Origin: Alphaproteobacteria bacterium
GTDB lineage: Bacteria; Pseudomonadota; Alphaproteobacteria; CADEGL01
DNA length: 48,037 bases
Direction of reading: 5' to 3'
Assembly (NCBI GenBank): GCA_026400755.1
Contig: JAPLOM010000063.1
Location: 146,353-194,389, forward strand
The translations under genes were made by a program, and so were the position numbers. Below the pieces are notes generated by a model. That model worked only from the letters and a program-made list of their open reading frames with translations. It searched no databases and had not been told where the DNA came from. Of this stretch, positions 2,106-24,611 are shown one piece after another. Position 1 is the first letter of the stretch, and each line of letters opens with the position of its first letter.

Positions 2106-2410
2106 GCGCCGTCTCCCGGACCCACGCCGTGTTGGGTCTGGACCTTCATGCCCGGCTCGGCGGGCGTCATGCAGGCGCGCACGGCGGGCTTGCCGTCGAC
2201 CACCATGATGCATTCCCAGCACACGCCCATGCCGCAATAGAGGCCGCGCGACATCTGGCTGCGGGCGCTGACGCGCGTGCGGCGGTGCCCTGCCGCCATC
2301 AGCGCGGCGGCGATCGATTCGCCGGGATAGGCAGTCACGGCCTCGCCATCACAGGTGAATTGAAAGGCGGTGCCGCGGTCGATGCCGTCCGTGATGCGGA
2401 AGCCGGTCAT
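2102..2410 (-). CDS. (2Fe-2S)-binding small subunit (HcnA/OoxX-like)
   Basis: A 102-residue ferredoxin-like protein. The plant-type cluster motif is visible as CGMGVCWEC (Cys59, 64, 67) with a fourth Cys at 80, matching the small iron-sulfur subunit of heterotrimeric opine, cyanide-forming or D-hydroxyproline dehydrogenases. It overlaps both neighbours by ATGA junctions (2407-2410 and 2102-2105), so the three subunits are almost certainly made together in fixed ratio. It would carry electrons between the two flavoprotein subunits. Confidence 0.85.
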   Translation of the reverse strand: MTGFRITDGIDRGTAFQFTCDGEAVTAYPGESIAAALMAAGHRRTRVSARSQMSRGLYCGMGVCWECIMVVDGKPAVRACMTPAEPGMKVQTQHGVGPGDGA

Positions 2411-3584: not shown

Positions 3585-4511
3585 CTACTCGGCGGCGAGG
3601 CGCTTGCCGGACCGCTTCACGGGGATCTCGGCGAGGCCGGCCTCGATCTTCTTCCGCGTCGCGTCATCCACGCGCAGATAAGGACGGCGCAGCGTGCCGC
3701 CGCCCGCGCGGCCCAGAATCTCCATCGCTTCCTTGACGAAGACATAGTTGGGCGCGCCTGCGTTGGACAGCAGGTGGTACAGGCGGTCCACGGTCCTCTG
3801 CGGACCCTTGGCCTCTTCCCAGCGACCCTTCGCGCACAGGCCGAAATACTCGACCAGGTCCGGGCCGCAGACGTTGGCCATCATGGAGACGGTGCCGACC
3901 GCGCCGCGATGGACGTTCGACATGATGTAGGGCTCGAGGCCGGCGAACATAGCCAGCGTGTCGCCGACGGCGTAGATCGTCTCGCTCTTCTGGTACAGGT
4001 CGCGGGTCGAATCCTTGAGCGCCACGATCGTGTCGATCTTGGCCAGGTCGCGCGCGAGGGAGGCATCGATGTTGATGCTGGTCCGCGGCGGGTTGTTGTA
4101 GAGCATGATCGGCAGGCCGACTTTGCCCACTTCCTCGAAGTGCGCGATGACCTCGCGGCGCGAGGGCAGGGCATAGGGCGGCGGCAGAACCATGCAGCCC
4201 GCCATGCCCAGCTTCTTCGCGGCCTGCGTCAGCTGCACGGCTTCGCGCGTGCCGATGGCCGACGTGCCGGCCAAGACCGGAACGCGGCCCGCCGTGTGCT
4301 CCTGCGCCAGCGCGAACAGGTCGACGCGCTCCTTGTCGGTCAGGGAAAACCATTCGCCGGTCGAGCCGGCGATGATCAGACCGTCCACGCCGTCGGCGAG
4401 GAACATGTCGATCATCTTGCGCGTGGCCGCCTCGTCCACCGAACCGTCCTTCGCAAACGGGGTGACGCAGGCTGGAAACACGCCCTTCCAATCGGTCCGA
4501 AGCTTCGCCAT
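3585..4511 (-). CDS. DapA/DHDPS-family lyase or deaminase
   Basis: 308 residues, the usual length for the dihydrodipicolinate synthase/N-acetylneuraminate lyase (beta/alpha)8 family. Visible: GSTGE (49-53) for carboxylate binding, Tyr138 in LYNNP and Schiff-base Lys166 in ALKDS. It is probably not biosynthetic DHDPS, because it heads a catabolic operon with the three-subunit dehydrogenase. In hydroxyproline catabolism a DapA-family deaminase (LhpC/HypD) acts on the product of exactly such a dehydrogenase, which makes a related cyclic-imine deaminase the best guess. Other options are a keto-deoxy-sugar acid dehydratase or aldolase. Confidence 0.8.
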   Translation of the reverse strand: MAKLRTDWKGVFPACVTPFAKDGSVDEAATRKMIDMFLADGVDGLIIAGSTGEWFSLTDKERVDLFALAQEHTAGRVPVLAGTSAIGTREAVQLTQAAKKLGMAGCMVLPPPYALPSRREVIAHFEEVGKVGLPIMLYNNPPRTSINIDASLARDLAKIDTIVALKDSTRDLYQKSETIYAVGDTLAMFAGLEPYIMSNVHRGAVGTVSMMANVCGPDLVEYFGLCAKGRWEEAKGPQRTVDRLYHLLSNAGAPNYVFVKEAMEILGRAGGGTLRRPYLRVDDATRKKIEAGLAEIPVKRSGKRLAAE

Positions 4512-4542
4512 CTGATCCTCTCCCGGAATATGCGTTTTGCGG

Positions 4543-4619
4543 GGCGCGCCCTGCGCGCCGCCTTTACAAGCTCGTCATCCTTCATTAGCAGAGTTGGTTT
4601 AGGGGCGCGACTCGCGCCC
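4543..4619. other. two short GC-rich hairpins upstream of the thioesterases
   Basis: GGCGCGC-CCT-GCGCGCC (4543-4559) and GGGCGCG-ACT-CGCGCCC (4603-4619) are perfect 7-bp stems in the divergent interval between the DapA-family gene and the thioesterases. Neither has a T tract, so they are not convincing intrinsic terminators. They may structure the leaders. Confidence 0.3.
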
Positions 4620-4626
4620 AGCCGAT

Positions 4627-4645
4627 CGTATTATATCGCAATACC
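4627..4645. promoter_or_regulatory. operator candidate CGTATT-N7-AATACC
   Basis: An imperfect inverted repeat 50 bp upstream of the first thioesterase. It shares half-site sequence and 7-bp spacing with the perfect CGTATT-N7-AATACG palindrome at 18104-18122 next to the IclR gene. An AT-rich TATTAT (4629-4634) lies inside it and could be a -10 element. The likeness of the two sites is seen directly; common control by the IclR protein is inference. Confidence 0.35.
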
Positions 4646-4694
4646 GTTCATCGGACCGCGATACGCCCGTCACCCGCCTGCGAGGACCCCTTCC

Positions 4695-5132
4695 ATGAGC
4701 CGGGACCAGCTTGAAACACCCGATCCGCGCGACCCTGCCTCCTACAAGTGCTGGGAGAGCTACCCGCTGCGCTTCAAAGACCAGGACATCATGCAGCACG
4801 TGAACAACGTGGTGTTCAGCCGCCTGTTCGAGAGCAGCCGCATCGAGTTCTGGCGCGGGCTGGGCCAGTTTCCGTTTCCGAAGGAAAGCGGCCTGATCAT
4901 GGTGCGGGGTGCGATCGACTATCTGCGCCAAGTTCACTATCCGGATACGGTCAAGATCGGCACGCGCATCAAGCAGATCGGCACGTCCTCGCTGCGGGTG
5001 CGCCAGGCGCTGTTCAACGGCAAGGGCGAATGCTGCGCCCTGTCCGAAACGGTCAGCGCCCACGCGCACTATGCCAGCAGCAAGTCTTCGCCCATCCCGG
5101 ACAAGCTCCGCAAAATCCTCGAATCGGTCTGA
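4695..5132 (+). CDS. acyl-CoA thioesterase, hotdog fold (4HBT-like), copy 1
   Basis: 145 residues of the 4-hydroxybenzoyl-CoA thioesterase type. RFKDQDIMQHVNN (27-39) resembles the active-site strand-loop of the family, where an Asp followed by HVNN begins the long central helix. Cytoplasmic hydrolysis of an acyl-CoA is the expected activity. The open frame extends far upstream, but the ATG at 4695 marks the start of homology and of the hotdog fold. It is followed after 8 bp by a second, divergent copy. Substrate not predictable. Confidence 0.8.
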   Translation: MSRDQLETPDPRDPASYKCWESYPLRFKDQDIMQHVNNVVFSRLFESSRIEFWRGLGQFPFPKESGLIMVRGAIDYLRQVHYPDTVKIGTRIKQIGTSSLRVRQALFNGKGECCALSETVSAHAHYASSKSSPIPDKLRKILESV

Positions 5133-9713: not shown

Positions 9714-10916
9714 TTAGATCACGCCATCGGCCTTCAATGCCGTGATGTCCGCGTCCGAAAGCCCCAGGCGGCCGCGATAGATGTCGTCATTGGCGTCGCC
9801 CAGCTTCGGTCCGACGCTGGTGATGCGGCCAGGCGTGCGCGACAGCTTCGGCACCGGAGAGGGTAGGACGACTTCGCCGGCTTCCGGATCGGTCATCCGC
9901 GTGAACATCTCGCGCGCCTGATAGTGCGGGTCTTTGTAAATATCCTCGATGGATAGGATCGCACCGCACGGCACTTCGTTCTCGTCGCAGATCTTTACCA
10001 GTTCCGCGCGCGTCAGCGTCCGGGTCCAGTCGGAAACCAGCTTTTCGACCTCGGGCCGGATCTTGAGGCGCGCGGTGTTGGTGGCCCAGCGCGGATCGTC
10101 GATCAGCTCGGCCCGGCCCATGGCCGTTACAATGCGGCCGAACATCTTGTCGTCGGTGCAGGAGATGGAGGCGTAGCCGCCGTCCTTGGTCGGATAGTTG
10201 GCGTTGGGCGCAGCGTTGGAGGTGAGCGAGCCGGTCGGCTGGCGGATCTTGCCGTGCTTGGCATAGGCCGGAAGCGTCTCGTCGAGGGAGCGGAACACGG
10301 CCTCGTACAGCGCCAGGTCGACATACTGGCCGATGCCTGTCTGGTCGCGCGAGCGCAGGGCCAAGACGATGCCGAGCGCGCCGTAAACCGCGGTGATGTA
10401 GTCGGCGAGGGACGGCGGGCCGGGGTTGACCGGCGGCTCGCCAGGGTTGCCGGCCAGATAGCCGATGCCGCTCATCGCGTGTGCCATACGCGCGAAGCCG
10501 ACGCGACTGCTCATCGGTCCCGTCTGGCCATAGGCCGTCAGGCGCAGCATGACCATGCGCTTGTTGAGCGCGTGCAGCGTGTCCCAGCCCAAGCCCCATT
10601 TCTCCAGGGTACCGGGGCGGAAATTCTCCACCACCACGTCCGTGTCCTTGACCAGGCGCTTGAACAGCTCGGCCCCTTTGGGCTTGCGCAGGTCGAGGGT
10701 GATCGAGCGGCGGTTGCGCGCGTCGTTCAGCCAATTGAGCGTGCCGTCGGCCCGCGCGGGGCTGCCGAACTTGCGAAGAGGATCGCCGATACCGGGCTTC
10801 TCGATCTTCAGCACGTCGGCGCCGAACTCGCCTAAAATTCCGGCGGCGACCGGGGCGGCGATGTAGGTGGCGGCGTCCAGCACCTGGACGCCCACGAGCG
10901 GACGTTCGTCGGTCAC
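9714..10916 (-). CDS. CaiB/BaiF (family III) CoA-transferase
   Basis: 400 residues, the normal length for formyl-CoA/oxalate or carnitine-type CoA-transferases. VLDAATYIAAPVA, the DVLKIEKPG strand, NARNRRSITLDL-like and VVENFRPGTLEKWGLG segments are typical; Asp172 in SLADYITAVYG is the expected residue that forms the acyl-enzyme anhydride. The start is GTG at 10916, with no ATG in frame nearby. It probably activates the acid consumed by the downstream acyl-CoA dehydrogenase. A paralogue is at 39910-41097. Confidence 0.9.
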   Translation of the reverse strand: MTDERPLVGVQVLDAATYIAAPVAAGILGEFGADVLKIEKPGIGDPLRKFGSPARADGTLNWLNDARNRRSITLDLRKPKGAELFKRLVKDTDVVVENFRPGTLEKWGLGWDTLHALNKRMVMLRLTAYGQTGPMSSRVGFARMAHAMSGIGYLAGNPGEPPVNPGPPSLADYITAVYGALGIVLALRSRDQTGIGQYVDLALYEAVFRSLDETLPAYAKHGKIRQPTGSLTSNAAPNANYPTKDGGYASISCTDDKMFGRIVTAMGRAELIDDPRWATNTARLKIRPEVEKLVSDWTRTLTRAELVKICDENEVPCGAILSIEDIYKDPHYQAREMFTRMTDPEAGEVVLPSPVPKLSRTPGRITSVGPKLGDANDDIYRGRLGLSDADITALKADGVI

Positions 10917-11087
10917 GATGCGGTATCCCCGTCAGTGGTGCGCCGGATGGTAGCGGAGGCGATGGGGCGAGGCCACCGGGCGCGCAGTGCGATACGCCCG
11001 ACGGACATTCCCATTCCCGACCGCAGCAAGACTATTGCCGTTGCCCGTGCCCTGTGGTGACTCTGTCGCCCGGTGCGGAGGGCGCAA

Positions 11088-12056
11088 ATGGACATCCAGG
11101 TCGGCAAGCAGATCCTTTATCTGTCCAAGGCGGACGTCGTTTCCCTGGGCATTACGCCCAAGCAGATGAACGACGCGGTCGAAGCCATGTTCAGGGCCAA
11201 GGCCGAAGGCAAGACGACCATGCGCCCCAAGCTGGCCATGTATCCCGGCAACAAGATGTTTATGGCGAAGGCCGGCGTGATGGAGCCCTTCGCCGCCGTG
11301 AAATGGCTGGGCTACGTCAAAGGCAACGCGGCCAACGGCTTCCCCGACTTCAACCCGATGGTGATGTTGAACGAGACTGTCACCGGCCTACCGGTCTGTT
11401 TCATGGACGGCAATTGGCTGTCGGGCACGCGCACGGCATCGTTCTCAGCCGTCGCCGCGAAGCAGTTGGCCAAAAAGGATTCGCGTTCGCTCGGCTTCGT
11501 CGCCTGCGGCCTGCAGGCGCACACGCATCTGGGCGCGTTGACGGCAGAATTCCCGATCGAGCGCATCGTGGCCTATAGCCGCAATCCGGCGACGGCCGAG
11601 AAATTCGCAGCCGAAGCCAGGGCGCGCGGCCTCAGGGCCGAGACCACGACCGATCCGCGCAAGGCGGTCGAAGGGCAGGACATCGTGATCTCCAGCGTGC
11701 CGGAAAAGGAGGGCTTCAAGTCCTTCCTCGACTGCGCGTGGATCTCGCCCGGCAGCTTCGTCACCATGGTGGATGTCGGCCGGTCGTGGCATCACGACTC
11801 GATCAAGACGTTGGACAAAATGGTCTGCGACGATCTGGAGCAAAGCGGGCCGAACAGCCCGGAGAAGACCAACTATTCCGGCCCGTTCCATGCCGAGATC
11901 GGCGAGATGCTGGTCGGACGCAAACCGGGCCGCGAAAACGGCCAGGAGCGCAACGGCCTGATCTTCTCCGGCATGGGCCTGGGCGACGTGGCCGCGAGTG
12001 CGCTGATCTACGAACAGGCGCTCAAGAAGAACATCGGCCACGTTCTGCCGTTGTGA
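11088..12056 (+). CDS. ornithine cyclodeaminase/mu-crystallin family protein, copy 1
   Basis: 322 residues. Lys72 (AAVKW) and Arg115 (SGTRTAS) match substrate-carboxylate residues of the OCD fold, and GFVACGLQA (136-144) is the glycine-rich NAD(P) loop. Members are NAD(P)-dependent ornithine cyclodeaminases, ketimine reductases, alanine or opine dehydrogenases. I preferred ATG 11088 over GTG 11073 because GGAGG lies 10 bp upstream of the ATG. First of four consecutive paralogues and the most divergent together with copy 2. Substrate unknown. Confidence 0.85.
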   Translation: MDIQVGKQILYLSKADVVSLGITPKQMNDAVEAMFRAKAEGKTTMRPKLAMYPGNKMFMAKAGVMEPFAAVKWLGYVKGNAANGFPDFNPMVMLNETVTGLPVCFMDGNWLSGTRTASFSAVAAKQLAKKDSRSLGFVACGLQAHTHLGALTAEFPIERIVAYSRNPATAEKFAAEARARGLRAETTTDPRKAVEGQDIVISSVPEKEGFKSFLDCAWISPGSFVTMVDVGRSWHHDSIKTLDKMVCDDLEQSGPNSPEKTNYSGPFHAEIGEMLVGRKPGRENGQERNGLIFSGMGLGDVAASALIYEQALKKNIGHVLPL

Positions 12057-12079
12057 CGAAGCGCGGGAAGGAAATCTCC

Positions 12080-13039
12080 ATGAAGCTCGGTAGCGAAATC
12101 CTCTACCTCTCCCGCGCGGACATCGCGGCGTGCGACGTGCCGCTGGAAGATGTCGAGGCGTCGGTCGAAGCCATGTTCGTGTCCAAGGCCAAGGGCACGG
12201 CGATGATGAAACCGAAGCTCGCGCTTCACTCGGACAGTGGCTGGTTCCTGGCCATGATCGGTGGCATCAAGGACAAGGGCTATACCGGCATGAAGTGGGT
12301 GGGCGTCACCTCGACCCAGACCCATGGCGGGCAGCCCCATATCAATGGCCAGATCGTGATCAACGACTTCGTGACCGGCATGCCGGTCGCGGTGATGGAT
12401 GCGCAATGGATCACGGGCGTGCGCACGGCGGCCATCTCGGCTGTCGGCGCCAAGTATCTTGCGAAGAAGGATTCCACCTCGATCGGTTTCGTTGCTTGCG
12501 GCCTGCAGGCGCGAACCAATCTGGACGCGCTGCGCCTGCGCTATCCGCTGAAGCGCCTCAAGGCCTATAGCCGCCGCAAGGAAACGGCCGAAGCCTTCGT
12601 CGCCGAGGCGTGCAAGCTGGGCTTGGAGGCCGTGGCGGTCGATTCGCCCAAGGCCGCCATGGAAGGGATGGACATCGTCGTGACCACGGTGCCCGTGGTG
12701 CCGAAGCCGGAGCGCACCTTCGATGGCGCCTGGCTGGCGCCGGGATCGTACGCCGCCATCGTCGATCTGGGACATCCGTGGAAGGGCGAGACGCTGACGG
12801 CGCTTGATTGCGTCGTGACCGACGATCTGGCCCAAGCCGTGACCGAAAAGCTCACCTATCCCAAGCCCTATAACGGCGAGGTGTCCGACCTGGTCGTGGG
12901 CAAGGTGATGGGGCGCAAGTCGGACAAGGACCGCACGGCACTGATGTTCGGCGGGCTGGGTCTGGCCGACGTGGCGGTGGGCGGCGTCGTTTACGAACGC
13001 GCGCGCGCCAAGGGCATTGGCCGCGTGTTGAAGTTGTAA
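12080..13039 (+). CDS. ornithine cyclodeaminase/mu-crystallin family protein, copy 2
   Basis: 319 residues, same layout as its neighbours: Lys72 in MKWVG, VRTAAISAVGAKYLA (114-128) and GFVACGLQARTNL for the dinucleotide. It differs from copies 3 and 4 by an insertion STQTHGGQPHING before the second conserved strand. GGAAGGA precedes the ATG; 23 bp separate it from copy 1 and 14 bp from copy 3, so one transcript is likely. Could be a cyclic-imine reductase or amino-acid dehydrogenase; not resolvable by eye. Confidence 0.85.
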   Translation: MKLGSEILYLSRADIAACDVPLEDVEASVEAMFVSKAKGTAMMKPKLALHSDSGWFLAMIGGIKDKGYTGMKWVGVTSTQTHGGQPHINGQIVINDFVTGMPVAVMDAQWITGVRTAAISAVGAKYLAKKDSTSIGFVACGLQARTNLDALRLRYPLKRLKAYSRRKETAEAFVAEACKLGLEAVAVDSPKAAMEGMDIVVTTVPVVPKPERTFDGAWLAPGSYAAIVDLGHPWKGETLTALDCVVTDDLAQAVTEKLTYPKPYNGEVSDLVVGKVMGRKSDKDRTALMFGGLGLADVAVGGVVYERARAKGIGRVLKL

Positions 13040-13053
13040 GGGGGAGAGGCGCC

Positions 13054-14028
13054 ATGAAAGCGGGACAGGAAATCCTCTTCCTCTCGGATGCTGATATCGC
13101 GGCGGCCAACGTGGGCCCGCGCGCGCTCGGCGATTCCGTCGAGACGATGTTGCGCGAGAAGGCATCTGGGCGCGCGGAGACGGCGCCCAAGGTCGGCATC
13201 TTCCCGGAACAGGGACGCTTCTTTCTCGCCATGGCCGGCGTGCTGGAGAAGCCAGCCTATGCGGCGGTGAAGTGGACTGGCGTGGTCCATGACAACGATG
13301 CAAGGGGTTTACCCAGCATCAGCCCGATGATTGTCCTGTCGGACCGCGCCACGGGCTTGCCGCTGTCGATCCTGGATGGCAAATGGATCACCACCCACCG
13401 CACGGCGGCCATCACGCTGGTCGGTGGCCGCTATCTTGCGCGCAAGGACAGCGAATCGATCAGCTTCATCGCCTGCGGCGTGCAGGCACGCAGCCATCTT
13501 CTCGCGTTCCGCGAACATTTCCCGATCAAGCGCGTCGTGGCCTACAGCCGCCGCAAGGAAACGGCCGAGGCTTTCGCCAAGGAGGTTCGCGCGCAAGGAC
13601 TTGAAGCCAAGGTCGTCACCGAGCCGCGCGAGGCAGTCGAAGGCATCGACATCGTGATCTCCAGCGTGCCGGAAGGGCCGGGCTTGAAGCCCTTCATCGA
13701 TCCGGCCTGGTTCTCGCCGGGCTCCTATGCGGGGCTGCTCGATATCGGCCGCGCGGTCATGTGGGACAAGCCGGACCAGACGGATGTCATGGCGACCGAC
13801 GATCACGTTCAGAGCGCGGAGCACATCAAGTCTGGCCGTTTGAAATATGCCGGGAAGTTCCACGCCGAGCTGTCCGAGTTCGCCTCGGGCGCGAAGAAGG
13901 CGCGCACTGATGCTAAGCAGCGCACGGTGCTGATCTTCTCCGGCATGGCATTGGCCGACGTGGCGGTGGCCGCCGCCATCTACGAAGGGGCGCTTAAGGC
14001 GGGCAAGGGCACCGTTCTTCCCCTCTAA
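13054..14028 (+). CDS. ornithine cyclodeaminase/mu-crystallin family protein, copy 3
   Basis: 324 residues. Lys73 in AAVKWTG, HRTAAITLVGGRYLA and the nucleotide loop FIACGVQARSHLL are in the expected order. It is strikingly similar to copy 4 over the whole length, for example FREHFPIKRVVAYSRRKETA against FREHFPLKRAFAYSRRKETA, which points to a recent duplication. GGGGGAGAGG lies just upstream of the ATG. The gap to copy 4 is only 4 bp. Confidence 0.87.
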   Translation: MKAGQEILFLSDADIAAANVGPRALGDSVETMLREKASGRAETAPKVGIFPEQGRFFLAMAGVLEKPAYAAVKWTGVVHDNDARGLPSISPMIVLSDRATGLPLSILDGKWITTHRTAAITLVGGRYLARKDSESISFIACGVQARSHLLAFREHFPIKRVVAYSRRKETAEAFAKEVRAQGLEAKVVTEPREAVEGIDIVISSVPEGPGLKPFIDPAWFSPGSYAGLLDIGRAVMWDKPDQTDVMATDDHVQSAEHIKSGRLKYAGKFHAELSEFASGAKKARTDAKQRTVLIFSGMALADVAVAAAIYEGALKAGKGTVLPL

Positions 14029-14032
14029 GGCG

Positions 14033-15010
14033 ATGCAACCCGGCCGCGACATCCTCTATCTCTCCGACGCCGACATCGAAGCGGCGGGCGTGGGGCCGCG
14101 CGCGCTCGGCGATGCGGTCGACTTCATGCTGTGCGAAAAGGCGGCGGGCCGGGCGGTCACGCGCCCCAAGACAGGCATTTTCCCAGATCCCGACCGCTTC
14201 TTCCTGGCCATGGCAGGGGTGATGGAGAAACCTGCCTATGCCGCGGTGAAGTGGGGCGGCACTGTGGTGGGCAACGAGGCGCGCGGCGTGCCCGCCATCA
14301 GCCCGATGATCATCCTGTCCGAACGCGCGACAGGACTGCCTCTCTGCATCCTGAGCGGGCGTTGGATCACCTCGCACCGCACGGCCGCGATCACGCTAGT
14401 GGGCGGCCGCTACCTCGCGAAGAAGAACAGCGAGACGATCGGTTTCGTGGCTTGTGGCGTACAGGCGCGCAGCCACCTGCTGACCTTCCGCGAACACTTT
14501 CCGCTGAAGCGCGCTTTCGCATACAGCCGCCGCAAGGAGACGGCCGAGGTCTTCGCCGCCGAGGCACGCGCGCAGGGATTGGAAACCACTGTCGTGACCG
14601 ATCCGCGCAAGGCGGTGGAGGGGATGGATATCGTCATTTCCAGCGCGCCCCAGGGCACGACGCTTCCGAAGCCCTTTATCGATCCGGCTTGGTTCTCGCC
14701 CGGCTCCTATGCCGGGCTTCTGGATATCGGCCGCACGGTCGATTGGAGCAAAGGGGATGCCTTCGACCTGATGGCGACCGACGACCATGCCCAGAGCGCT
14801 GAGAACGTGAAGCTGGGCCGGCTCGGCTATCTGAAACCGTTCAACGCGGAACTGGCTGATCTGGCCTCGGGCAAGATCAAGGCGCGCACGGATGACCGGC
14901 AACGCACGGGCCTGATTTTTTCCGGTCTGGCTCTGGGCGACGTGGCGGTCGCGGGTGCCATCTATGAGGGCGCGCTCAAGTCGGGCAAGGGCACGCTGCT
15001 GCCGCTCTAG
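14033..15010 (+). CDS. ornithine cyclodeaminase/mu-crystallin family protein, copy 4
   Basis: 325 residues, closest to copy 3. Lys73 (AAVKWGG), HRTAAITLVGGRYLAKK and FVACGVQARSHLL are all intact, so no copy looks like a decayed pseudogene. Four intact paralogues imply either different substrates or heteromeric enzymes (mu-crystallin/OCD proteins are dimers). The gene is followed 30 bp later by the LrgA/LrgB pair on the same strand. Confidence 0.87.
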   Translation: MQPGRDILYLSDADIEAAGVGPRALGDAVDFMLCEKAAGRAVTRPKTGIFPDPDRFFLAMAGVMEKPAYAAVKWGGTVVGNEARGVPAISPMIILSERATGLPLCILSGRWITSHRTAAITLVGGRYLAKKNSETIGFVACGVQARSHLLTFREHFPLKRAFAYSRRKETAEVFAAEARAQGLETTVVTDPRKAVEGMDIVISSAPQGTTLPKPFIDPAWFSPGSYAGLLDIGRTVDWSKGDAFDLMATDDHAQSAENVKLGRLGYLKPFNAELADLASGKIKARTDDRQRTGLIFSGLALGDVAVAGAIYEGALKSGKGTLLPL

Positions 15011-15040
15011 CCGCCCGCCGCGCGATGCTATGATCCGGCC

Positions 15041-15400
15041 GTGATCGGGGCTCTCACTCTTTTGCTTCTCTGTCAGCTCGCGGGCGAATTGCTCGCGCGC
15101 CTGTGCGGCCTGCCCGTGCCGGGCCCGGTCCTGGGTCTGGTCATGCTGTTCGTCATCTGCGTCGCGCGCGGGTCGATGCCCGAGCCGCTGCGCGAGACTT
15201 CGCAGACGATCCTGCGCCATTTGTCGCTTCTGTTCGTGCCCGCGGGCGTCGGCGTCATGGTCCACGCGGCGCGTATCGAATCGGAATGGGTCGCCATCCT
15301 GGTCGCGCTTCTGGTCAGCGCCGTTCTCACCATCGCCGTCACGGCCTTGGTCTTCCGCTGGGTCGCGCGCTGGAGCGGCACGGGCGGAGAGGCGCCATGA
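15041..15400 (+). CDS. LrgA/CidA-family membrane protein
   Basis: 119 residues, almost entirely hydrophobic, with four predicted membrane spans. The PVPGPVLGLVMLF segment and FVPAGVGVM are typical of LrgA. The start is GTG at 15041. Although the family was first called holin-like, LrgAB complexes are now linked to pyruvate transport and the plant homologue to glycolate/glycerate transport (established knowledge). Its stop overlaps the start of LrgB (ATGA). Downstream of four OCD-type enzymes, transport of a keto or hydroxy acid is a reasonable but untested idea. Confidence 0.85.
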   Translation: MIGALTLLLLCQLAGELLARLCGLPVPGPVLGLVMLFVICVARGSMPEPLRETSQTILRHLSLLFVPAGVGVMVHAARIESEWVAILVALLVSAVLTIAVTALVFRWVARWSGTGGEAP

Positions 15401-16116
15401 TGCCCCGCTTCGGTGATGTTTGGGTCTATCTCAGCGCGACGCCGCTTCTGTGGCTAACGGCCACGCTGGCGGCCTATGTCGCCGCCTTCTGGCTTTACCA
15501 GCGCGCGGGCCAGAATCCCTTGGTCAATCCCGTCGCGGTGTCGGTCGCCGCTCTCGTCGCGGTCCTGATCGTCAGCGGAACGGATTATCCGACCTACTTC
15601 AACGGCGCGCAGTTCGTTCATTTCCTGCTGGGCCCCGCGACCGTCGCGATTGCCGTGCCGCTCCATCTCAATTTCGCGGTGGTGCGGCGCAATCTTGTGC
15701 CGATGGTCGCGGCGCTTCTGGCCGGGTCGGTCACGGCGGCGGTTTCGGTCGTCGGTATCGCCTATGCGTTGGGCGCCAGCCGCGAAACGCTTCTGTCGTT
15801 GGCGCCCAAGTCAGTAACGGCGCCTATCGCCATGGGCATCGCCGAGCAGATCGGCGGCGTGCCCTCGCTCACGGCCGTGCTGGTGATCTTGACCGGCATC
15901 ACGGGCGCCATGATCGCAAAGCCGGTCTTGAATTTTCTCGGCATTCGAGACTGGCCCGCGCGCGGGTTCGCGGTCGGATTGACGGCGCACGGCATCGGCA
16001 CGGCGCGCGCGTTCCAGGTCAACGAGGTGGCTGGGACCTTCGCGGGAATCGCGATGGGGCTGAACGGCCTGGCGACGGCGTTCCTGGTGCCGCTGCTGGC
16101 GGCGCTCCTGGGCTGA
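15397..16116 (+). CDS. LrgB-family membrane protein
   Basis: 239 residues with multiple hydrophobic spans and the family signatures SLAPKSVTAPIAMGIA and GLTAHGIGTARAFQ. It starts at the ATG 15397, inside the TGA of LrgA, so the pair is translationally coupled. LrgB is the larger inner-membrane partner. Its 3' end is 11 bp from the convergent PhyH gene. Family assignment is firm; the transported molecule is unknown. Confidence 0.92.
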   Translation: MMPRFGDVWVYLSATPLLWLTATLAAYVAAFWLYQRAGQNPLVNPVAVSVAALVAVLIVSGTDYPTYFNGAQFVHFLLGPATVAIAVPLHLNFAVVRRNLVPMVAALLAGSVTAAVSVVGIAYALGASRETLLSLAPKSVTAPIAMGIAEQIGGVPSLTAVLVILTGITGAMIAKPVLNFLGIRDWPARGFAVGLTAHGIGTARAFQVNEVAGTFAGIAMGLNGLATAFLVPLLAALLG

Positions 16117-16127: not shown

Positions 16128-16994
16128 CTAAATCGCTATCGGCGGCTGAGGCCAAACCCGGGGGAAAAGTTCGCCGCCTATGGGCTCGCCGGGGCGGAAA
16201 ACTCCCGCGCCGAAGCTGGGCGAAGTGCCCTCCGGCCTCTCCACGAAGGTTGTGCCGTCGCCTGCGAAGCGGAACGTAACCGCGCGCAATTTTCGTGCGT
16301 CGTCCTTGTTCCCCGGCGAGCCGTGCAGCGCGAAGCCGTGAAACACCAGACAATCACCGGGGTTCATGGCTTGGCGGACGACCTTGAAGCCAGACGCGCC
16401 GGCATCGATATCCGGCAGCGGAATCGCGTCGCTTCGATCCCCGGCCGAGAAGTGGGGTGATCTGCCGCCGTCGCGAAACGACGGCCGTTTGAAATGGCCC
16501 ATACGGTGCGAGCCGCGCACAAAGCCAAGAACGCTGTGTTCCAATGCGGGGTCGAGCGGCATCCACACGCTTACGATCTTGTCACCTTCGACTGGCCAGT
16601 AGGGCGCGTCCTGATGCCATGGCGTCGGCTGGTCTAGGCCTTCGGTGCGATAGAAGACGCCATCCCAGAGCAGGTCCACAAAGGGCGAGCGCGCGATGCG
16701 CGCGGTCATTTCGGCGATGCCCGATTCCCAAATGAATCGGCGGAATGCGGTTATGCGTGGCCAGGATCGGCTGACATTGAAAAACACCCTCTCCTCGCCG
16801 GGACCGCCGGCATACCAATGATAACCTTCGGCCGGATCGGCGCGTACTTGCTCAACGCCGTCGCGCAGGCTCGCGATCCAGTCGTCTGAAAAGACATCGC
16901 GAAGAAGTACGGCGCCATCGCGCCAGTAAGAGGCGACGTTCGCTTCGGTTACGGCATGCGCAGGAGTCGCATGCACCGCATCGACAATTCTCAT
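16128..16994 (-). CDS. phytanoyl-CoA dioxygenase (PhyH)-family Fe(II)/2-oxoglutarate oxygenase
   Basis: 288 residues with the complete facial triad: His127 and Asp129 in WHQDAPYW, and His224 in LHGSPGN. Arg237 or Arg242 is the likely 2-oxoglutarate ligand. PhyH enzymes hydroxylate CoA esters, osmolytes or free small molecules. It is the only gene between the LrgAB operon and the IclR regulator and is co-directional with the regulator (125-bp gap). Substrate unknown; the nearby IclR protein may control it. Confidence 0.88.
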   Translation of the reverse strand: MRIVDAVHATPAHAVTEANVASYWRDGAVLLRDVFSDDWIASLRDGVEQVRADPAEGYHWYAGGPGEERVFFNVSRSWPRITAFRRFIWESGIAEMTARIARSPFVDLLWDGVFYRTEGLDQPTPWHQDAPYWPVEGDKIVSVWMPLDPALEHSVLGFVRGSHRMGHFKRPSFRDGGRSPHFSAGDRSDAIPLPDIDAGASGFKVVRQAMNPGDCLVFHGFALHGSPGNKDDARKLRAVTFRFAGDGTTFVERPEGTSPSFGAGVFRPGEPIGGELFPRVWPQPPIAI

Positions 16995-18123: not shown

Positions 18124-18206
18124 TGATAGCGCTGGCAACGCAAGGCCGGTATGGGAAAATGCTTGTGCGCCGGCCGTATCGGCCGGCGCCTCACGGTGGG
18201 GAAATC

Positions 18207-18992
18207 ATGCCTGAATTCATCAAGGTCGAACGCAACGGCGATGTCGCGGTCATCACGTTGAATCGTCCCGAAAAGCTCAACGCGTGGCATAAGCCCATGC
18301 GCGACGAGCTGCGTCAGGCCTTCATTGATGCGAATAAAGACTCCGCGGTGGGCGCGGTGATCGTGACCGGTTCAGGCGACCGCGCCTTCTCGGCGGGCCA
18401 GGACCTGGAGGAAACCAAGCAGTTCGTGGGCGGTGCCCAGGGCGGTGCGCAGGGCAGCGAGTGGCTTGATTCCTGGCGCGTGTTCTACACGACCATGCGC
18501 GAGGTCGATAAACCGATGATCGCGGCGCTGAACGGCGTTGCCGCGGGTTCGGCCTTCCAAGTCACGTTGCTGTGCGACATCCGTATCGGCCATGCCGGCG
18601 TGCGCATGGGCCAGCCCGAGATCAACTCTGGCATCCCCTCGGTCATGGGACCCTGGATGATGAACGAGCGTCTGGGACTCTCGCGCACGGTCGAGCTGAC
18701 GCTCACAGGCCGAATGATGAATGCCGACGAATGCCACCGCATCGGCATCCTCCATTACCTAATGCCGCAGAATCAGGTCATGCCGAAGGCGCTCGAGATC
18801 GCGAAGCATTTAGCGGGCAAGCCCAGCATCGCGATGAAGCTCAACAAGAAGCGCCTCCGCGAAGTGACGCAGCCTGCCTTCGACGACGCTTGCAAGTCTG
18901 GCAAGCGAATCCAGGGCGAGGCCTACGCGTCTGGCGAACCGCAGCGCTACATGGCCAAGTTCTTCGAGGATCGCGCTAAAAAACGGGCCTGA
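18207..18992 (+). CDS. enoyl-CoA hydratase/isomerase (crotonase) family protein
   Basis: 261 residues with the crotonase oxyanion-hole segments AFSAGQDL (60-67) and ALNGVAAGSA (107-116). Of the two catalytic Glu residues of classical hydratase, the second is kept (Glu138 in GQPEIN) but the first is replaced by Gln118. Loss of one Glu is found in isomerases, hydrolases and lyases of the superfamily, so simple hydration of enoyl-CoA is uncertain. The ATG at 18207 has GGTGGGGAAA before it. Likely regulated by the divergent IclR gene. Confidence 0.87.
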   Translation: MPEFIKVERNGDVAVITLNRPEKLNAWHKPMRDELRQAFIDANKDSAVGAVIVTGSGDRAFSAGQDLEETKQFVGGAQGGAQGSEWLDSWRVFYTTMREVDKPMIAALNGVAAGSAFQVTLLCDIRIGHAGVRMGQPEINSGIPSVMGPWMMNERLGLSRTVELTLTGRMMNADECHRIGILHYLMPQNQVMPKALEIAKHLAGKPSIAMKLNKKRLREVTQPAFDDACKSGKRIQGEAYASGEPQRYMAKFFEDRAKKRA

Positions 18993-19137
18993 GTATAGGT
19001 ACTCATCACGTCCGTATCGGCGGCTCGGGGGAGCACGACAAATAAAAGGCGCAATCGCGCAACACGCTGTGACAGCCTCGTGACGGCGTGGCGATGAAGA
19101 GTGCCTACAGTTTGAAATCGTGAGCGGGAAGAGAAGC

Positions 19138-20202
19138 ATGAAGGACGGAGCGAAATCTATCGGCGCCGTAAAGCGCCGCGACGTGCTCAAGGGCGCTGGC
19201 ATCGGTGCCGCGGCCCTGGCATTCCCGGCGGTGTTGACTCCGCGCAAGACGCGGGCCGCCGAAAAGCTCGTGGTTCGCGATCCGGGCGGGCCGTTCGAGA
19301 AAGCTTTCCAAGAGGCCTTCTACAAGCCCTTCACCAAGGAGACGGGTATCGAGATCGTCGGCGTAGCCGGGCAACATGAGCCTGTCGCGCTTATCAAGGG
19401 CATGGTCGAGACGAAGGCCTATCAGTGGGATTGCACGATCCTGGGATATTCCACCCAAGAGACGCTGCGCAACCAAGACTTCCTGGAAGAGCTGAAGCTG
19501 GATAACGATCCCGCCGTGGCGGAGATTCCGAAAGAATTCCGCACGTCGACGATGGTCGGCAGCGACGTGTATTCCACCGTGCTGGCGTACCGCACCAACT
19601 ACTACTGGAAGGATATGTGGGACGTTAAGGGCGTTCCCGGCCGGCGAGGAATGCGAAAATATCCGCACGACACGCTGGAAGAAGCTCTGTTGGCCGATGG
19701 CGTGCCGGGCGACAAGCTGTACCCACTCGACATCGACCGCGCTTTCAACAGCCTGGCGAAGATCAAGAAGGACGCGGCCATCTGGTGGACTGGCGGCGCC
19801 CAGACATCGCAGATGCTCAAGACCGGCGAGGTCGACATGTGCGCGACCTGGAACGGCCGCGCCCAGGCCGCCATCGACGACGGCGGGCCGGTCGCGATCT
19901 CCTGGAACCAGGGGCTGTGGGCCTACGAAGGCTGGTGCATTCCCAAGGGTGCGCCGAAGATCGAGCTTGCGCGTAAATTCATCGCGTTCTGCTCGCGCGC
20001 GGATCGCCAGGCGGCCTATACGCCGTTCCTGGCGTATGGTCCGCCCAATCCTGGCGCTTTCAAGCACATCGATCCGAAGCGCGCCGTGCTGCTGCCGACG
20101 TTCCCGGACAACTTTAAGCAGATGTACCGGATCGATGCGGCGTGGTGGGGCACCTTGCAGGAAAAGGTGCTTGAGCGAAACAACCAGTGGATGCTGACCT
20201 AA
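19138..20202 (+). CDS. ABC transporter periplasmic binding protein (PotD-like), Tat-exported, copy 1
   Basis: 354 residues. The N-terminus VKRRDVLKGAGIGAAALAFP (11-30) is a twin-arginine signal with likely cleavage after TRA (38-40), so the protein is exported folded. The rest is a class II periplasmic binding fold of the spermidine/putrescine group. I prefer ATG 19138 to GTG 19120 because GGAAGAG sits just ahead of it. A 303-bp interval separates it from copy 2, so it may be transcribed separately. Ligand unknown; polyamine-like cations or amino-acid derivatives are plausible. Confidence 0.88.
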   Translation: MKDGAKSIGAVKRRDVLKGAGIGAAALAFPAVLTPRKTRAAEKLVVRDPGGPFEKAFQEAFYKPFTKETGIEIVGVAGQHEPVALIKGMVETKAYQWDCTILGYSTQETLRNQDFLEELKLDNDPAVAEIPKEFRTSTMVGSDVYSTVLAYRTNYYWKDMWDVKGVPGRRGMRKYPHDTLEEALLADGVPGDKLYPLDIDRAFNSLAKIKKDAAIWWTGGAQTSQMLKTGEVDMCATWNGRAQAAIDDGGPVAISWNQGLWAYEGWCIPKGAPKIELARKFIAFCSRADRQAAYTPFLAYGPPNPGAFKHIDPKRAVLLPTFPDNFKQMYRIDAAWWGTLQEKVLERNNQWMLT

Positions 20203-20505
20203 GATCTTCGGCGATCCAGTGCGTTTCGAGAGAATTTAGAAGATCGGCGCCGCCGTGCCGCCATTCCCCGAGACGGGGAAGGATGGCCGGCGGTGGTGGC
20301 CGTTGCTTGCCTTCCGGGGCGGGGGCGGCGGGTCGGCGCTATCGAATAGCGGTTTGTGCTCGTTGCTTCGCCGTCCCTTGTTTGGCTAAAATTATTGTAA
20401 TGATATGGCGTACTTTCCATAGAGGACGGGCGCCATAAAAGACCGTGCTGGCGATTGTCGCTCAAGTGCGGGGGCCAACATGGCCACAACGAGGAGGCTT
20501 CATCT
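20203..20505. other. 303-bp gap between the two binding-protein genes
   Basis: No convincing gene here. TTCCCCG-AGA-CGGGGAA (20264-20280) is a short perfect hairpin without a T run. A low-GC patch around 20380-20415 (TTGTTTGGCTAAAATTATTGTAATGATAT) is split here by position only: TTGTTT near 20380 and TAATGA near 20400 are the sort of elements expected of a promoter for the downstream operon, but spacing is not canonical. GAGGAGG at 20491-20497 is the ribosome-binding site of copy 2. Confidence 0.4.
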
Positions 20506-21576
20506 ATGCGCATCAAATCGGCGGTCAGCCGTCGTTCAATTCTTAAGGGGGCAGGCGTCGGTGCAGCCGCTGTTGCCTTCCCGACCGTGCTTGTGCCCCG
20601 CAAGACGCGCGCGGCGGTGCAGATCACCGTCCGCGATCCGGGCGGGCCGTTCGAAAAGGCCTTCGGCGAGGGCCTCTACAAGCCGTTCAACGAAAAGTAC
20701 AAAGGCCAGTGCGAAGTGATCGGCGTGGCCGGCAAGCACGAGCCGACGGCGCAGGTCAAGGCGATGGTCGATACCAAGACGTACACTTGGGATGCTGCGC
20801 TGCTCAGCATGTCGGCCCACGATGCGTTGCCCGGCTATCTCGAACCGCTCGAGCTGAAGGGTACGGCCTATGACGAGCTGAGGGCGGAGTACAAGACGCC
20901 GACTTTTTCGGGCAACGACGTTTACTGCGCCGTCATCGGTTATCGCACCGACAAGGTGAAGAAGGCGCCCAAGTCCTGGGCCGACCTTTGGAACGTGAAG
21001 GACTTCCCGGGCCGCCGCTCGCTCCGCAAGTACCCCTTCGACACGATCGAAGAAGCGCTGATGGCGGATGGCGTGCCGACCAACAAGGTCTATCCCTGCG
21101 ATTTCGACCGTGCGTTCAAGTCCCTCGACAAGATCAAGAAGGACGTGGCCGTGTGGTGGGACCAGGGCGCCCAGGCTTCGCAGATGCTGAAGACCAACGA
21201 AGTCGACATGCTGCCGTGCTGGAACGGCCGTATTCAGGCCGTGATCGACGACGGCGCGCCGGTGGCGATGGAGTGGAACCAGAACATCGCGGGCGTCGAA
21301 GGGTGGTGCATCTTGAAAGGCACGCCGAAGGCCGAATGGTGCCGCAAGTTCATCGCCTTCGCGGCCGAGGGCAAGACGCAGGCCGGCTGGGTCGAGCATC
21401 TGACCTATGGCCCCACGAACCCGAACGCGTTCAAGTTCATCAAGCCGGAACGCGCCAGGCTCGTGGGAACCTTCCCCGAATACCAGACTCAAGCGTTGTT
21501 GATTGACAACGGATTCTGGGGCAAGGAGAAGGACAAGGCGATCGACCAGTTCAACGCCTGGATGCTCAAGGGCTAG
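20506..21576 (+). CDS. ABC transporter periplasmic binding protein (PotD-like), Tat-exported, copy 2
   Basis: 356 residues, clearly a paralogue of the preceding gene: same Tat signal (SRRSILKGAGVGAAAVAFP), same VRDPGGPFEKAF start of the mature domain, same FPGRRSLRKYP and YGPTNPNAFK motifs. The strong GAGGAGG 9 bp before the ATG fixes the start. It stands first in the gene set with ATPase and permease, so this copy is the likely main receptor. A long hairpin lies just downstream of its stop. Confidence 0.9.
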   Translation: MRIKSAVSRRSILKGAGVGAAAVAFPTVLVPRKTRAAVQITVRDPGGPFEKAFGEGLYKPFNEKYKGQCEVIGVAGKHEPTAQVKAMVDTKTYTWDAALLSMSAHDALPGYLEPLELKGTAYDELRAEYKTPTFSGNDVYCAVIGYRTDKVKKAPKSWADLWNVKDFPGRRSLRKYPFDTIEEALMADGVPTNKVYPCDFDRAFKSLDKIKKDVAVWWDQGAQASQMLKTNEVDMLPCWNGRIQAVIDDGAPVAMEWNQNIAGVEGWCILKGTPKAEWCRKFIAFAAEGKTQAGWVEHLTYGPTNPNAFKFIKPERARLVGTFPEYQTQALLIDNGFWGKEKDKAIDQFNAWMLKG

Positions 21577-21669: not shown

Positions 21670-22779
21670 GTGTCCGAACCAGCTTACAAACTTAAGATCA
21701 GAAACCTGCGCAAGACGTATGGTCCCGTCATCGCCTTGGCGGACGCCAACGTCGATATGCGCGAGGGCGAGTTTCTTACCCTTCTCGGGCCTTCGGGTTC
21801 GGGTAAGACCACGATGCTCATGGCCGTTGCGGGCCTGTTGCAGCCGGATGGCGGCGAGGTCTGGATCGATGGCCGCTTGGCCACCTACATGCCGCCCAAC
21901 AAGCGCGACATCGGCATGGTATTTCAGAACTACGCGCTGTTCCCGCACCTGACGGTCGCCGAAAACATCGCGTTCCCCTTGCGTATGCGCAAGGTGGACG
22001 AAGCCACGATCAAGAAAGAGGTCACGCGCGTCCTCGACGTCGTGCGCCTTCCCCAGGTCGCCGAGCGTCAGCCGCGCCAGCTTTCGGGCGGCCAGCAGCA
22101 GCGTATCGCGCTGGCCCGCTGCATCGTCTACAAGCCGTCGATCATCTTGATGGACGAGCCGCTGGGCGCATTGGACAAGAAGCTGCGCGACCAGATGCAG
22201 CTCGAGATCAAGCACTTGGCCGTGCAGCTTGGCATCACCGTGCTCTATGTCACGCACGACCAGGAAGAAGCGCTGGTCATGTCCGACCGCATCTGCCTCA
22301 TGAACGACGGCGAGATCGAGCAGTTGGGCACGCCGGACGAGCTCTATTTCCGTCCCACCTCGGTGTTCGCGGCCGACTTCCTTGGCGAATCGAACCTGAT
22401 TAAGGCGACGGTTTCCGCGGTCGATGGTAGCGCCGTCACCCTGAAGGCACCTGGCGGCGCCATCGTGCGCGCCGCGCCGTCCCGGTTCGAGGTGCGCCCC
22501 GGCCAGCAGGTCACCTTCATGGTCCGGCCCGAGAACGTCCATCTGCTTAACCCTGGCGACAAGACCGACAACGAGGTGTCCGTGAAGCTGGACGACGTCG
22601 TGCTCGTCGGCCAGGTCACCAAGGCATATGCCAAGTTGGGCGGCGAGACGAAGCTGTCGTCCACACAGTTGACGCGCGTCGGTGCCAAGATGCCGAAGTC
22701 CGGCGAAGAAGTCCGCTTCGGCTGGTCCGTCGATGCCACCGTGCTGGTCGCCGAAAAGCGCCCGGGAGCGGCAGCGTGA
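21670..22779 (+). CDS. ABC transporter ATPase (PotA-like)
   Basis: 369 residues. Walker A GPSGSGKTT (40-48), Q-loop in VFQNY, signature LSGGQQQR (138-145), Walker B IILMDEP (158-164) and switch His196 are all intact. The C-terminal 130 or so residues form the TOBE domain typical of spermidine/putrescine- and iron-type importers. The start is GTG at 21670. Its TGA overlaps the GTG of the permease gene (GTGA), coupling the two. It powers import of the ligand captured by the Tat-exported receptors. Confidence 0.95.
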   Translation: MSEPAYKLKIRNLRKTYGPVIALADANVDMREGEFLTLLGPSGSGKTTMLMAVAGLLQPDGGEVWIDGRLATYMPPNKRDIGMVFQNYALFPHLTVAENIAFPLRMRKVDEATIKKEVTRVLDVVRLPQVAERQPRQLSGGQQQRIALARCIVYKPSIILMDEPLGALDKKLRDQMQLEIKHLAVQLGITVLYVTHDQEEALVMSDRICLMNDGEIEQLGTPDELYFRPTSVFAADFLGESNLIKATVSAVDGSAVTLKAPGGAIVRAAPSRFEVRPGQQVTFMVRPENVHLLNPGDKTDNEVSVKLDDVVLVGQVTKAYAKLGGETKLSSTQLTRVGAKMPKSGEEVRFGWSVDATVLVAEKRPGAAA

Positions 22780-24611
22780 CCACACTCAACCAAATGCGTG
22801 CGGTTCACGGGGACAAGGTCTACAAGCCGCGTCCGGGTTGGCATGCGGGACTTCCGCTCGTCCCGGTTTTCATTTTCCTGGCCCTTTTCTTCTTTTTCCC
22901 GGTCATCCAGCTTCTGAGCCTGTCGGTCCAGACCAAGGGTGAGCTGTCGGGCATCCACTATCTCCGCCTGGTCGAATCGGACGTCTATGTCCGCTCGCTC
23001 CTGATCACCCTGAAGGTCGCGTTCTACACGACTCTCATCTGCGTGGTGGCGGCCTATCCTTTGGCCTACATGCTGGCCACGGCGTCGGGCCAGACGCGCA
23101 ACTCGCTCATTCTGTGGGTGCTGATGCCGTTCTGGACCAGTTTCCTGGTCCGCACCTTTGCATGGCTGGTCCTGTTGGGACGCCACGGCCCGCTTAACAA
23201 GTATCTGATCGAACTGGGTCTCCTCAGTGAACCGCTAGAATTCTTCAACATGCTTGGAACCATGATCGGCATGGTGCATGCGCTCATGCCGCTCGCGGTC
23301 ATGACCATGCTGTCGGTCATGGAGACGATCGACGCCAACCTGCCCAAGGCGGCGGCCACCCTCGGCGCGCGCGGCGGTCAGGCGTTCTGGCGAATCTACT
23401 TCCCGCTCTCGCTGCCGGGCCTCGCGGCCGGCGGACTTCTGGTCTTCATCACTGCCCTCGGCTTCTTCATCACGCCCACGATTTTGGGCGGCGGCCGCAT
23501 CATGATGATCGCCCAGTTGATCATCGAGCAGGTCGAGCAGTTGCTGAACTGGGGTTTCGCGGGCGCCATCGCGCTTCTCTTGCTTCTGACGGCGCTGGTG
23601 GTCTTCTACCTCTATGACCGCCTCTTGGGCATGTCGACCTTGTCGGGCAGTGGGGCGGCCGACCGCAGCGGTGCGGGCCTTGGCTCCAACCCCATCGGCA
23701 AGGCCGGCGTGTGGATCGGCGGCATCTTCATCAACGCCATCGGCTGGGTCTGCGACCGCTTTGGCGAACTGGTCGAGGTGGTGCGCCCGATCCGTCCCGA
23801 CCGGCCGCGCAAGACGATGTCGCGCACGGTCATGTGGATCACCGGCATCACCATCCTGGTGTTTCTGTCGGCGCCGTCCTTCTTCGTCGTGCCGGTGTCG
23901 TTCACCGGCGGCGGCTTCCTGGAATGGCCGCCCCAAGGCTTTTCCACGCGCTGGTACGATCTCGTGTTCGAGTCGGCGACGTGGCGGGCCGCGGGTATCC
24001 GCTCCTTCAGCGTGGGCGTCATCTCGGCGCTTCTGGCCATGGCGATCTCGGTGCCGGCGGCTTTCGTGCTGACCCGGCAGCGGCTCAAGGGCAGGACACT
24101 CTATATGTCGCTCCTGCTCTCGCCGTTGATCATTCCGCGCATCTTGATCGCGGTGGCGCTGTTCTACAGCTACGCCTACGCCGACCGGTTCCTGCAGATT
24201 GGGCTGATCGGTTCCTCGCTTGGCCTCGTGCTCGGCCACGCGATGCTGGCCGTGCCCTATGTCGTGGTCACGGTCATGGCGGTGTTGAAGAACTACGACT
24301 ACCGCCTCGACCAGGCCGCGTGGAGCTTGGGCGCCAACAAGGCGCGCACGCTGTGGCACATCACGTTCCCGCTGATCCGCGCGGGTCTGTTGGCCGCGTT
24401 CCTGTTCGCCTTCGTCACGTCGTTCGACGAGCTCACCATCGCGCTGTTCGTCAGCGGTGGCCTCGCCACGACCTTGCCGAAGCAGATGTGGGACGATGCG
24501 CTGCTCAAGGTCAGCCCCGGCCTCGCGGCCGCTTCGACGCTGATCCTGATCTTCGTGACCAGCATGATCTTCCTGGCGGAGTTCCTGCGCAGGAAGGCGG
24601 CTAAGTCTTAA
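22776..24611 (+). CDS. fused ABC permease (PotB-PotC in one chain)
   Basis: 611 residues, about twice a single permease. Two full membrane domains are joined by a polar linker around 285-345. Each half carries its own ATPase-coupling EAA loop: AAATLGARGGQAFWRIYFPLSLPG-like near 195-217 and AAWSLGANKARTLWHITFPL near 515-535 (given in part). In PotABCD systems these halves are separate genes, so this is a gene fusion seen directly in one frame. The GTG start at 22776 overlaps the ATPase stop. Confidence 0.93.
   Translation: MTTLNQMRAVHGDKVYKPRPGWHAGLPLVPVFIFLALFFFFPVIQLLSLSVQTKGELSGIHYLRLVESDVYVRSLLITLKVAFYTTLICVVAAYPLAYMLATASGQTRNSLILWVLMPFWTSFLVRTFAWLVLLGRHGPLNKYLIELGLLSEPLEFFNMLGTMIGMVHALMPLAVMTMLSVMETIDANLPKAAATLGARGGQAFWRIYFPLSLPGLAAGGLLVFITALGFFITPTILGGGRIMMIAQLIIEQVEQLLNWGFAGAIALLLLLTALVVFYLYDRLLGMSTLSGSGAADRSGAGLGSNPIGKAGVWIGGIFINAIGWVCDRFGELVEVVRPIRPDRPRKTMSRTVMWITGITILVFLSAPSFFVVPVSFTGGGFLEWPPQGFSTRWYDLVFESATWRAAGIRSFSVGVISALLAMAISVPAAFVLTRQRLKGRTLYMSLLLSPLIIPRILIAVALFYSYAYADRFLQIGLIGSSLGLVLGHAMLAVPYVVVTVMAVLKNYDYRLDQAAWSLGANKARTLWHITFPLIRAGLLAAFLFAFVTSFDELTIALFVSGGLATTLPKQMWDDALLKVSPGLAAASTLILIFVTSMIFLAEFLRRKAAKS

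Follow-up and report, generated by a model that had tools for sequence, protein, structure and literature searches.

A conserved array of ornithine cyclodeaminase/mu-crystallin family genes followed by an LrgAB pair in a small alphaproteobacterial family

Layout and history of the array

Four genes of the ornithine cyclodeaminase (OCD)/mu-crystallin family and a following pair of LrgA- and LrgB-like membrane protein genes lie on the plus strand in a 48,037-nucleotide stretch of alphaproteobacterial DNA, referred to here as the window (contig 10, positions 146353-194389). The genome that contains it is 3.36 Mb in 87 contigs and is probably metagenome-assembled. The genes of the array are given below, with the ratio of nonsynonymous to synonymous substitution (dN/dS), which was obtained by Nei-Gojobori counting on orthologues of the two members of the window's genus.

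11088-12056, plus strand: OCD1, OCD/mu-crystallin family oxidoreductase, class 1; 322 aa; PF02423, 171 bits; dN/dS 0.065
12080-13039, plus strand: OCD2, class 2; 319 aa; PF02423, 175 bits; dN/dS 0.065
13054-14028, plus strand: OCD3, class 3; 324 aa; PF02423, 181 bits; dN/dS 0.051
14033-15010, plus strand: OCD4, class 3, a genus-level duplicate of OCD3; 325 aa; dN/dS 0.045
15041-15400, plus strand: LrgA-like membrane protein, GTG start; 119 aa; PF03788, 93 bits; dN/dS 0.144
15397-16116, plus strand: LrgB-like membrane protein; 239 aa; PF04172, 265 bits; dN/dS 0.065

The OCD genes are separated by 23, 14 and 4 bp, lrgA starts 30 bp past OCD4, and lrgA and lrgB overlap by 4 bp (ATGA). PF02423 scores of OCD1-OCD4 are 146-181 bits against a cut-off of 24, which places all four in the superfamily; the LrgA and LrgB domains, adjoining in one operon and overlapping, likewise place the pair in the LrgAB family. 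Identity to OCD3 is 75% for OCD4, 48% for OCD1 and 45% for OCD2. The low dN/dS of the OCD genes (0.045-0.065) indicates strong purifying selection and rules out decaying copies. OCD1-OCD4 are real genes under selection, laid out as a single operon. Translation and Pfam searches thus reproduced exactly what the original prediction, made from the DNA letters, had described: four intact, undecayed OCD genes with these gaps, and LrgAB 30 bp on. Simple scans of the window for promoters and terminators gave nothing above chance, and the window has no tRNA genes.

The window's GTDB family and its order were both covered by the same five genomes in three genera, which is a small within-lineage sample. 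A sister metagenome-assembled genome of the genus carries the same four OCD genes and LrgAB in the same order (CADEGL010000065.1), with the OCD genes 93-96% identical, and a clustered array of at least three OCD genes is present in all five family genomes. A strain-specific amplification or a chimeric assembly is ruled out by the array of the sister genome together with the related arrays in three more genomes. No such clustering was seen elsewhere: among 84 PF02423 genes (E<=1e-30) from 95 other alphaproteobacterial genomes there was no tandem, and the nearest pair lay about 15 kb apart. Of the 385 genomes of the class, 16 had a close relative by a profile built from OCD1-OCD4 (cut-off E<=1e-70), and more than one copy was found only in the five family genomes; elsewhere this OCD subfamily occurs in single copy. 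A phylum-wide search added just single, weaker relatives.

A maximum likelihood tree of 51 OCD proteins resolved three groups (OCD1-like, OCD2-like and OCD3/4-like), each with members in all three genera. Support is 100/100 for the OCD3/4 group, 99/96 for the OCD2 group, which is joined by single genes from three further lineages, and 98/95 for the OCD1 group, which takes in one long-branched gene from outside the family. The split between OCD3 and OCD4 is confined to the window's genus. OCD1 has orthologues in two genomes (G001 and G002) and class members in G003 and G004, and class 2 has members in all five family genomes. Because each group is represented in every genus, an array of three or more genes was most likely in place before the genera split. 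It is not the product of one recent amplification; only the OCD3/OCD4 duplication is recent, and the phylogeny called for by the original prediction has in this way separated three old classes from one young pair. On this tree, one ancestral OCD gene would have given rise to three specialists in the same direction ahead of the divergence of the genera, and OCD3 to OCD4 later in the window's genus.

Gene order differs between the genera. The order OCD1-2-3-4-LrgAB is found in the window and at L009/L072; L075 has class 1-OCD2-OCD3-LrgAB, with a further class-1 gene 7.5 kb off; and L077 and L078 have OCD2-class 1-OCD3 without LrgAB. OCD genes also occur beyond the arrays in G001 and G004 (L073 9516-10493, minus strand; L079 8178-9167, plus strand; L074 9049-10020, minus strand), and those at L073 and L079 belong to class 1.

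The copies might simply be redundant duplicates that raise gene dosage. The recent, 75% identical OCD3/OCD4 pair is compatible with such a role, but OCD1 and OCD2 are far more divergent from OCD3, each class has been retained from a time before the genera diverged, and a few alignment columns are fixed differently by class (for example, column 60 K/M/M and column 109 G/A/G). As an account of the whole array, gene dosage is unlikely.

Residues, fold and family assignment of the OCD proteins

An AlphaFold model of OCD3 (predicted local distance difference test score 95.4) has its best matches among PDB folds in the pyrroline-2-carboxylate (Pyr2C) reductase 6t3e, the alanine dehydrogenase (AlaDH) 1omo, SbnB (4m54) and mu-crystallin, and also matches 1u7h. 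Profile searches with the OCD proteins returned the same relatives (AlaDH, Pyr2C reductase and SbnB). The archaeal AlaDH/Pyr2C reductase branch (1omo and 6t3e) provides the best full-length profile and fold matches, with 272 and 262 bits and template modelling (TM) scores of 0.84-0.87, at 28-30% identity. Equivalents of K41, K65 and R108 of 1omo are kept in the array proteins; K46, K73 and R116 (OCD3 numbering) are present in all four, as are G142 and Q144 of the nucleotide loop. The array differs from this branch in having four clustered genes, not one, in an Ala for the first Gly of the loop (the canonical G-x-G-x-Q-A reads A-C-G-[VL]-Q-A in OCD1-OCD4), and in Ser-Arg for the Asp after beta-2. 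Ser-Arg at this place favours NADP. The original prediction had listed the substrate Lys and Arg and the nucleotide loop as kept in every copy, which is correct with the refinement of this Ala.

The Asp of the GAD motif is the catalytic residue of cyclodeaminase, and we take it to be D228 (GAD/GSD) in the P. putida enzyme. OCD1-OCD4 carry a Gly in its place (residue 232 in OCD3) and a near-invariant Asp two residues before it, which also distinguishes them from 1omo. In place of this Gly, the class-3 genes have Ser in G002 and Ala in G003 and G004. The Gly rules out a true ornithine cyclodeaminase for all four proteins. SbnB of staphyloferrin B synthesis also lacks the aligned Asp, and matches over the full length with 231 bits and a TM score of 0.88, at 25% identity; no siderophore genes were seen near the array.

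OCD1-OCD4 score 121-167 bits on the archaeal-type alanine dehydrogenase model TIGR02371 (equivalog cut-off 409), 100-124 bits on the SbnB model TIGR03944 (cut-off 327) and 62-91 bits on NF045512, the model for LhpI, a Pyr2C/piperideine-2-carboxylate reductase (cut-off 400). The AlaDH, SbnB and LhpI equivalog assignments were rejected on these shortfalls. Family and residues together make OCD1-OCD4 most likely NAD(P)H-dependent imine/amino-acid oxidoreductases and not cyclodeaminases. Their fold and profile neighbours, being enzymes of this type, agree with the amino-acid and imine chemistry first proposed for them.

OCD-family members are commonly dimers, and the paralogues could be subunits of one heteromeric enzyme in which the three classes are needed jointly and do not represent three activities. 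Three co-directional, closely spaced classes are indeed kept jointly in all family genomes. The varying gene order speaks against a heteromer, as do class-1 genes away from the array (G002 3959-4924 and G001 C19) and class-2 genes that stand alone in other lineages; moreover, the K/K/R set is kept in all copies, so none resembles a dead regulatory subunit. We regard a heteromer as improbable.

Linkage and role of LrgAB

LrgB occurs in three of the five family genomes, directly after the array in each. The copy in G002 is in two pieces at contig ends, and the spacing between array and lrgA is about 16 bp there versus 30 bp in the window. The two genomes of the third genus (G003 and G004) keep the array and lack LrgAB. 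At L078 (G004) a convergent IclR gene directly follows OCD3, so LrgAB is missing from the site itself and not merely from the assembly. A control set of 40 other alphaproteobacterial LrgB loci, taken with about 6 kb on each side where the contig allowed, contained no OCD gene when searched with 52 OCD queries, and LrgAB was found at none of 16 OCD loci outside the family. A general LrgAB-OCD association is ruled out by the control loci, and the coupling is specific to two genera of this lineage, given these loci and the third genus without LrgAB. A literature search, with most subscription journals outside its scope, returned no paper describing the combination of an OCD array with LrgAB.

The original prediction had held that a functional coupling would fail if the array were confined to this strain and lrgAB were linked elsewhere to unrelated genes. 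The array proved to be shared by the whole family, and neighbourhood searches recovered close linkage to lrgAB in two genera; in the third genus the array stands without lrgB, and lrgAB in other lineages is linked to other genes.

Relatives of the LrgAB/PftAB/PLGG1 type carry pyruvate, glycolate or glycerate (PMC6790026, PMC5626966, PMC4368765). The window pair shares the LrgA and LrgB Pfam families with LrgAB/CidAB, PftAB and PLGG1, in adjoining and overlapping genes. It differs from them in its link to OCD genes, in having no two-component regulator pair among the annotated genes of the window, and in a score of 199 bits on the TIGR00659 equivalog, below the cut-off of 250. By analogy, it is plausible that LrgAB moves a small keto or hydroxy acid by-product. 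About as likely, and a little short of an even chance, is that LrgAB is a passenger, i.e. a generic monocarboxylate/CidAB-type pair that has lain downstream since the ancestor of the two genera and shares a transcript with the array but no functional tie. The arrays without LrgB in G003 and G004 and the absence of linkage at the 40 LrgB and 16 OCD loci are what such a passenger would produce. The close co-directional placement, kept in two genera despite divergence of LrgB to 62-79% identity, and the dN/dS of 0.065 for LrgB are harder to explain in this manner.

Neighbouring genes and a proposed catabolic uptake locus

Further genes on both sides of the array bear on its function:

651-2105, minus strand: flavin dehydrogenase alpha subunit with BFD [2Fe-2S] domain; PF07992 and PF04324; 1y56_A, sarcosine oxidase alpha
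2102-2410, minus strand: flavin dehydrogenase gamma subunit, 102 aa; [2Fe-2S] motif C-x4-C-x2-C-x11-C; 4-bp overlap with beta
2407-3552, minus strand: flavin dehydrogenase beta subunit, OdhB/D-HypDH-beta-like; PF01266; nearest PDB entries 1y56_B and sarcosine/dimethylglycine oxidases
3585-4511, minus strand: DHDPS-superfamily lyase; PF00701, 218 bits
17120-18007, minus strand: IclR-family regulator, PcaR/PobR-like; TIGR02431, 235 bits, below the cut-off of 285
18147-18992, plus strand: crotonase/enoyl-CoA hydratase-like protein
19120-20202, plus strand: ABC substrate-binding protein 1, grouped by BLAST with other PotD-type binding proteins
20455-21576, plus strand: ABC substrate-binding protein 2; PF13416; PDB relatives
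21670-22779, plus strand: PotA-like ATPase; TIGR01187, 363 bits, above the cut-off of 356
22776-24611, plus strand: fused PotB/PotC-like permease; PF00528, two permease regions
24673-25923, plus strand: DadA-like FAD D-amino-acid dehydrogenase/oxidase; PF01266, 215 bits; PRK00711, 216 bits

Solved relatives of binding protein 2 include polyamine/gamma-aminobutyrate (GABA)-type, MotA (mannopine) and agropine binding proteins (names as deposited). The two binding proteins are related and in tandem, and share one ATPase/permease set. The flavin dehydrogenase genes (beta-gamma-alpha) come after the DHDPS-superfamily gene. Simple open reading frame calling missed the gamma gene, which was recovered by reading frames and completes an alpha-beta-gamma enzyme, a plan shared with flavin opine dehydrogenase and with D-hydroxyproline dehydrogenase (PMC4575208). 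A PhyH-type dioxygenase gene (16128-16994, minus strand) lies between lrgB and the IclR gene and was not found at this position in L072 of the sister genome. Two adjoining Rieske oxygenase genes are found at 45030-46220 and 46204-~47430 (minus strand); relatives of these genes adjoin OCD genes at L084 and L086, and relatives are also close to the additional class-1 OCD gene at L073.

By gene content, the window holds the set of an Odh/Oox-type opine cluster. It shares with the OoxAB/OdhABC and ocd clusters a beta-gamma-alpha flavin dehydrogenase, an ABC importer with an opine-type binding protein and an OCD-family enzyme (PMC4575208). It differs in its several OCD enzymes, all without the cyclodeaminase Asp, in the position of its flavin dehydrogenase 8 kb off on the other strand, and in the added crotonase, IclR and LrgAB genes. 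Hydroxyproline/proline clusters with D-amino acid oxidase (DAAO), DHDPS and Pyr2C reductase bring together the same enzyme superfamilies in one neighbourhood (PMC4113996), but the window cluster has no proline-racemase-family gene and its OCD proteins fall short of the LhpI cut-off. The six proline-racemase-family matches of the genome lie on other contigs (C17, C29, C36, C42, C63 and C65), which speaks against the standard 4-hydroxyproline pathway here.

Several of these partners recur at single-copy OCD loci of distant lineages. L083 (G130) has the most complete recurrence outside the family, with OdhA-C-B, DHDPS, OCD, two crotonases, a substrate-binding protein, PotA, PotBC, DadA and EamA in one 15-kb run. 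L084 (G371) combines OCD, IclR, two crotonases, a substrate-binding protein, PotA, PotBC and DadA; L086 (G294) has OdhA-C-B, Rieske, OCD and IclR; and L017 (Elioraea) has IclR, crotonase, weak Odh matches and two binding protein/Pot sets. The opine-type set is thus linked to OCD in full at L083, in part at L086 and weakly at L017. Within the family, IclR lies near the OCD cluster at L072, L076, L077 and L078. Across the 16 outside OCD loci, IclR was found at five, OdhA/B/C at three and DadA at two, and each at none of the 40 control loci, a rough comparison, as the controls are lrgAB-centred, at most 12.8 kb and somewhat shorter than many OCD loci. The core partners were absent at 10 of the 16 outside loci, several of which are short contigs or more distant relatives. 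L084 also has an MTTB-family (trimethylamine methyltransferase-like) gene (10257-11762, plus strand) downstream of its OCD/IclR/crotonase/ABC/DadA run. This gene, together with the Rieske oxygenases beside OCD at L084 and L086, hints at N-methylated or betaine-like substrates.

We lean towards a catabolic locus that takes up opine-, betaine- or proline-like compounds and has the array as its set of oxidoreductases, because the kept partners are a MotA/GABA-type importer, IclR, crotonase, a DadA-like oxidase and a flavin dehydrogenase. There are precedents: OCD-family Pyr2C reductases are found beside DAAO/DHDPS genes (PMC4113996), the opine flavin dehydrogenase OdhABC occurs with ABC transporters, and ocd occurs in Ti-plasmid operons (PMC4575208). 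We infer the direction of the reactions, the substrates and the division of labour as follows. The importer would take up amino-acid-like compounds of these kinds, and the three-subunit opine/hydroxyproline-type dehydrogenase and the DadA-like oxidase would oxidise them to imines. The OCD-family enzymes may then convert these imines, or mixtures of alpha-keto acids and amines, to amino acids and back, and LrgAB, where present (two of three genera), would probably carry a small product, a 2-keto or 2-hydroxy acid like pyruvate or glycolate.

Several points weigh against this reading. The genes for the flavin dehydrogenase are on the other strand and about 8 kb upstream of the array, 13 of the 16 outside loci have no such dehydrogenase close to their OCD gene, two of the five family genomes lack LrgAB and keep the array, and none of OCD1-OCD4 reaches an NCBIfam equivalog cut-off (best 167/409 bits). 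The standard hydroxyproline route is also incomplete, since the proline-racemase-family genes are on other contigs and no gene for alpha-ketoglutarate semialdehyde dehydrogenase was found among those annotated.

The original prediction had proposed instead a module that makes keto or imino acids and exports them. A biosynthetic role, in which the OCD enzymes make opine- or imino-acid-like products for export, could draw on SbnB as one of the closest sequence and fold matches and on the existence of OCD-family tauropine dehydrogenases (PMC4575208, PMC4113996). The kept partners, i.e. an importer with binding proteins, IclR, crotonase and flavin oxidases, indicate uptake and catabolism, and no SbnA-like, siderophore or peptide synthetase genes are among the annotated genes of the window; we hold this role to be the least probable of those considered. 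A more specific form of the catabolic reading is conceivable but doubtful. The three old OCD classes would be a dedicated set (an imine panel or a heteromer) in an uncharacterised amine/opine/betaine degradation pathway, with LrgAB as the pathway's own keto/hydroxy-acid carrier in two genera.

An OCD array of three classes that is stable across a whole family is unusual, given that no tandem was found in 95 other genomes, and it offers a natural experiment on the way in which a single imine-reductase fold divides up its substrates. OCD1-OCD4 would add new candidates to those for biocatalysis with imine reductases, and tying LrgAB to a catabolic enzyme set would help to define its cargo beyond pyruvate. 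The partner genes that recur beside single-copy OCD genes in distant lineages leave a narrower choice of likely pathway, one that takes up and oxidises compounds resembling opines, betaines or proline.

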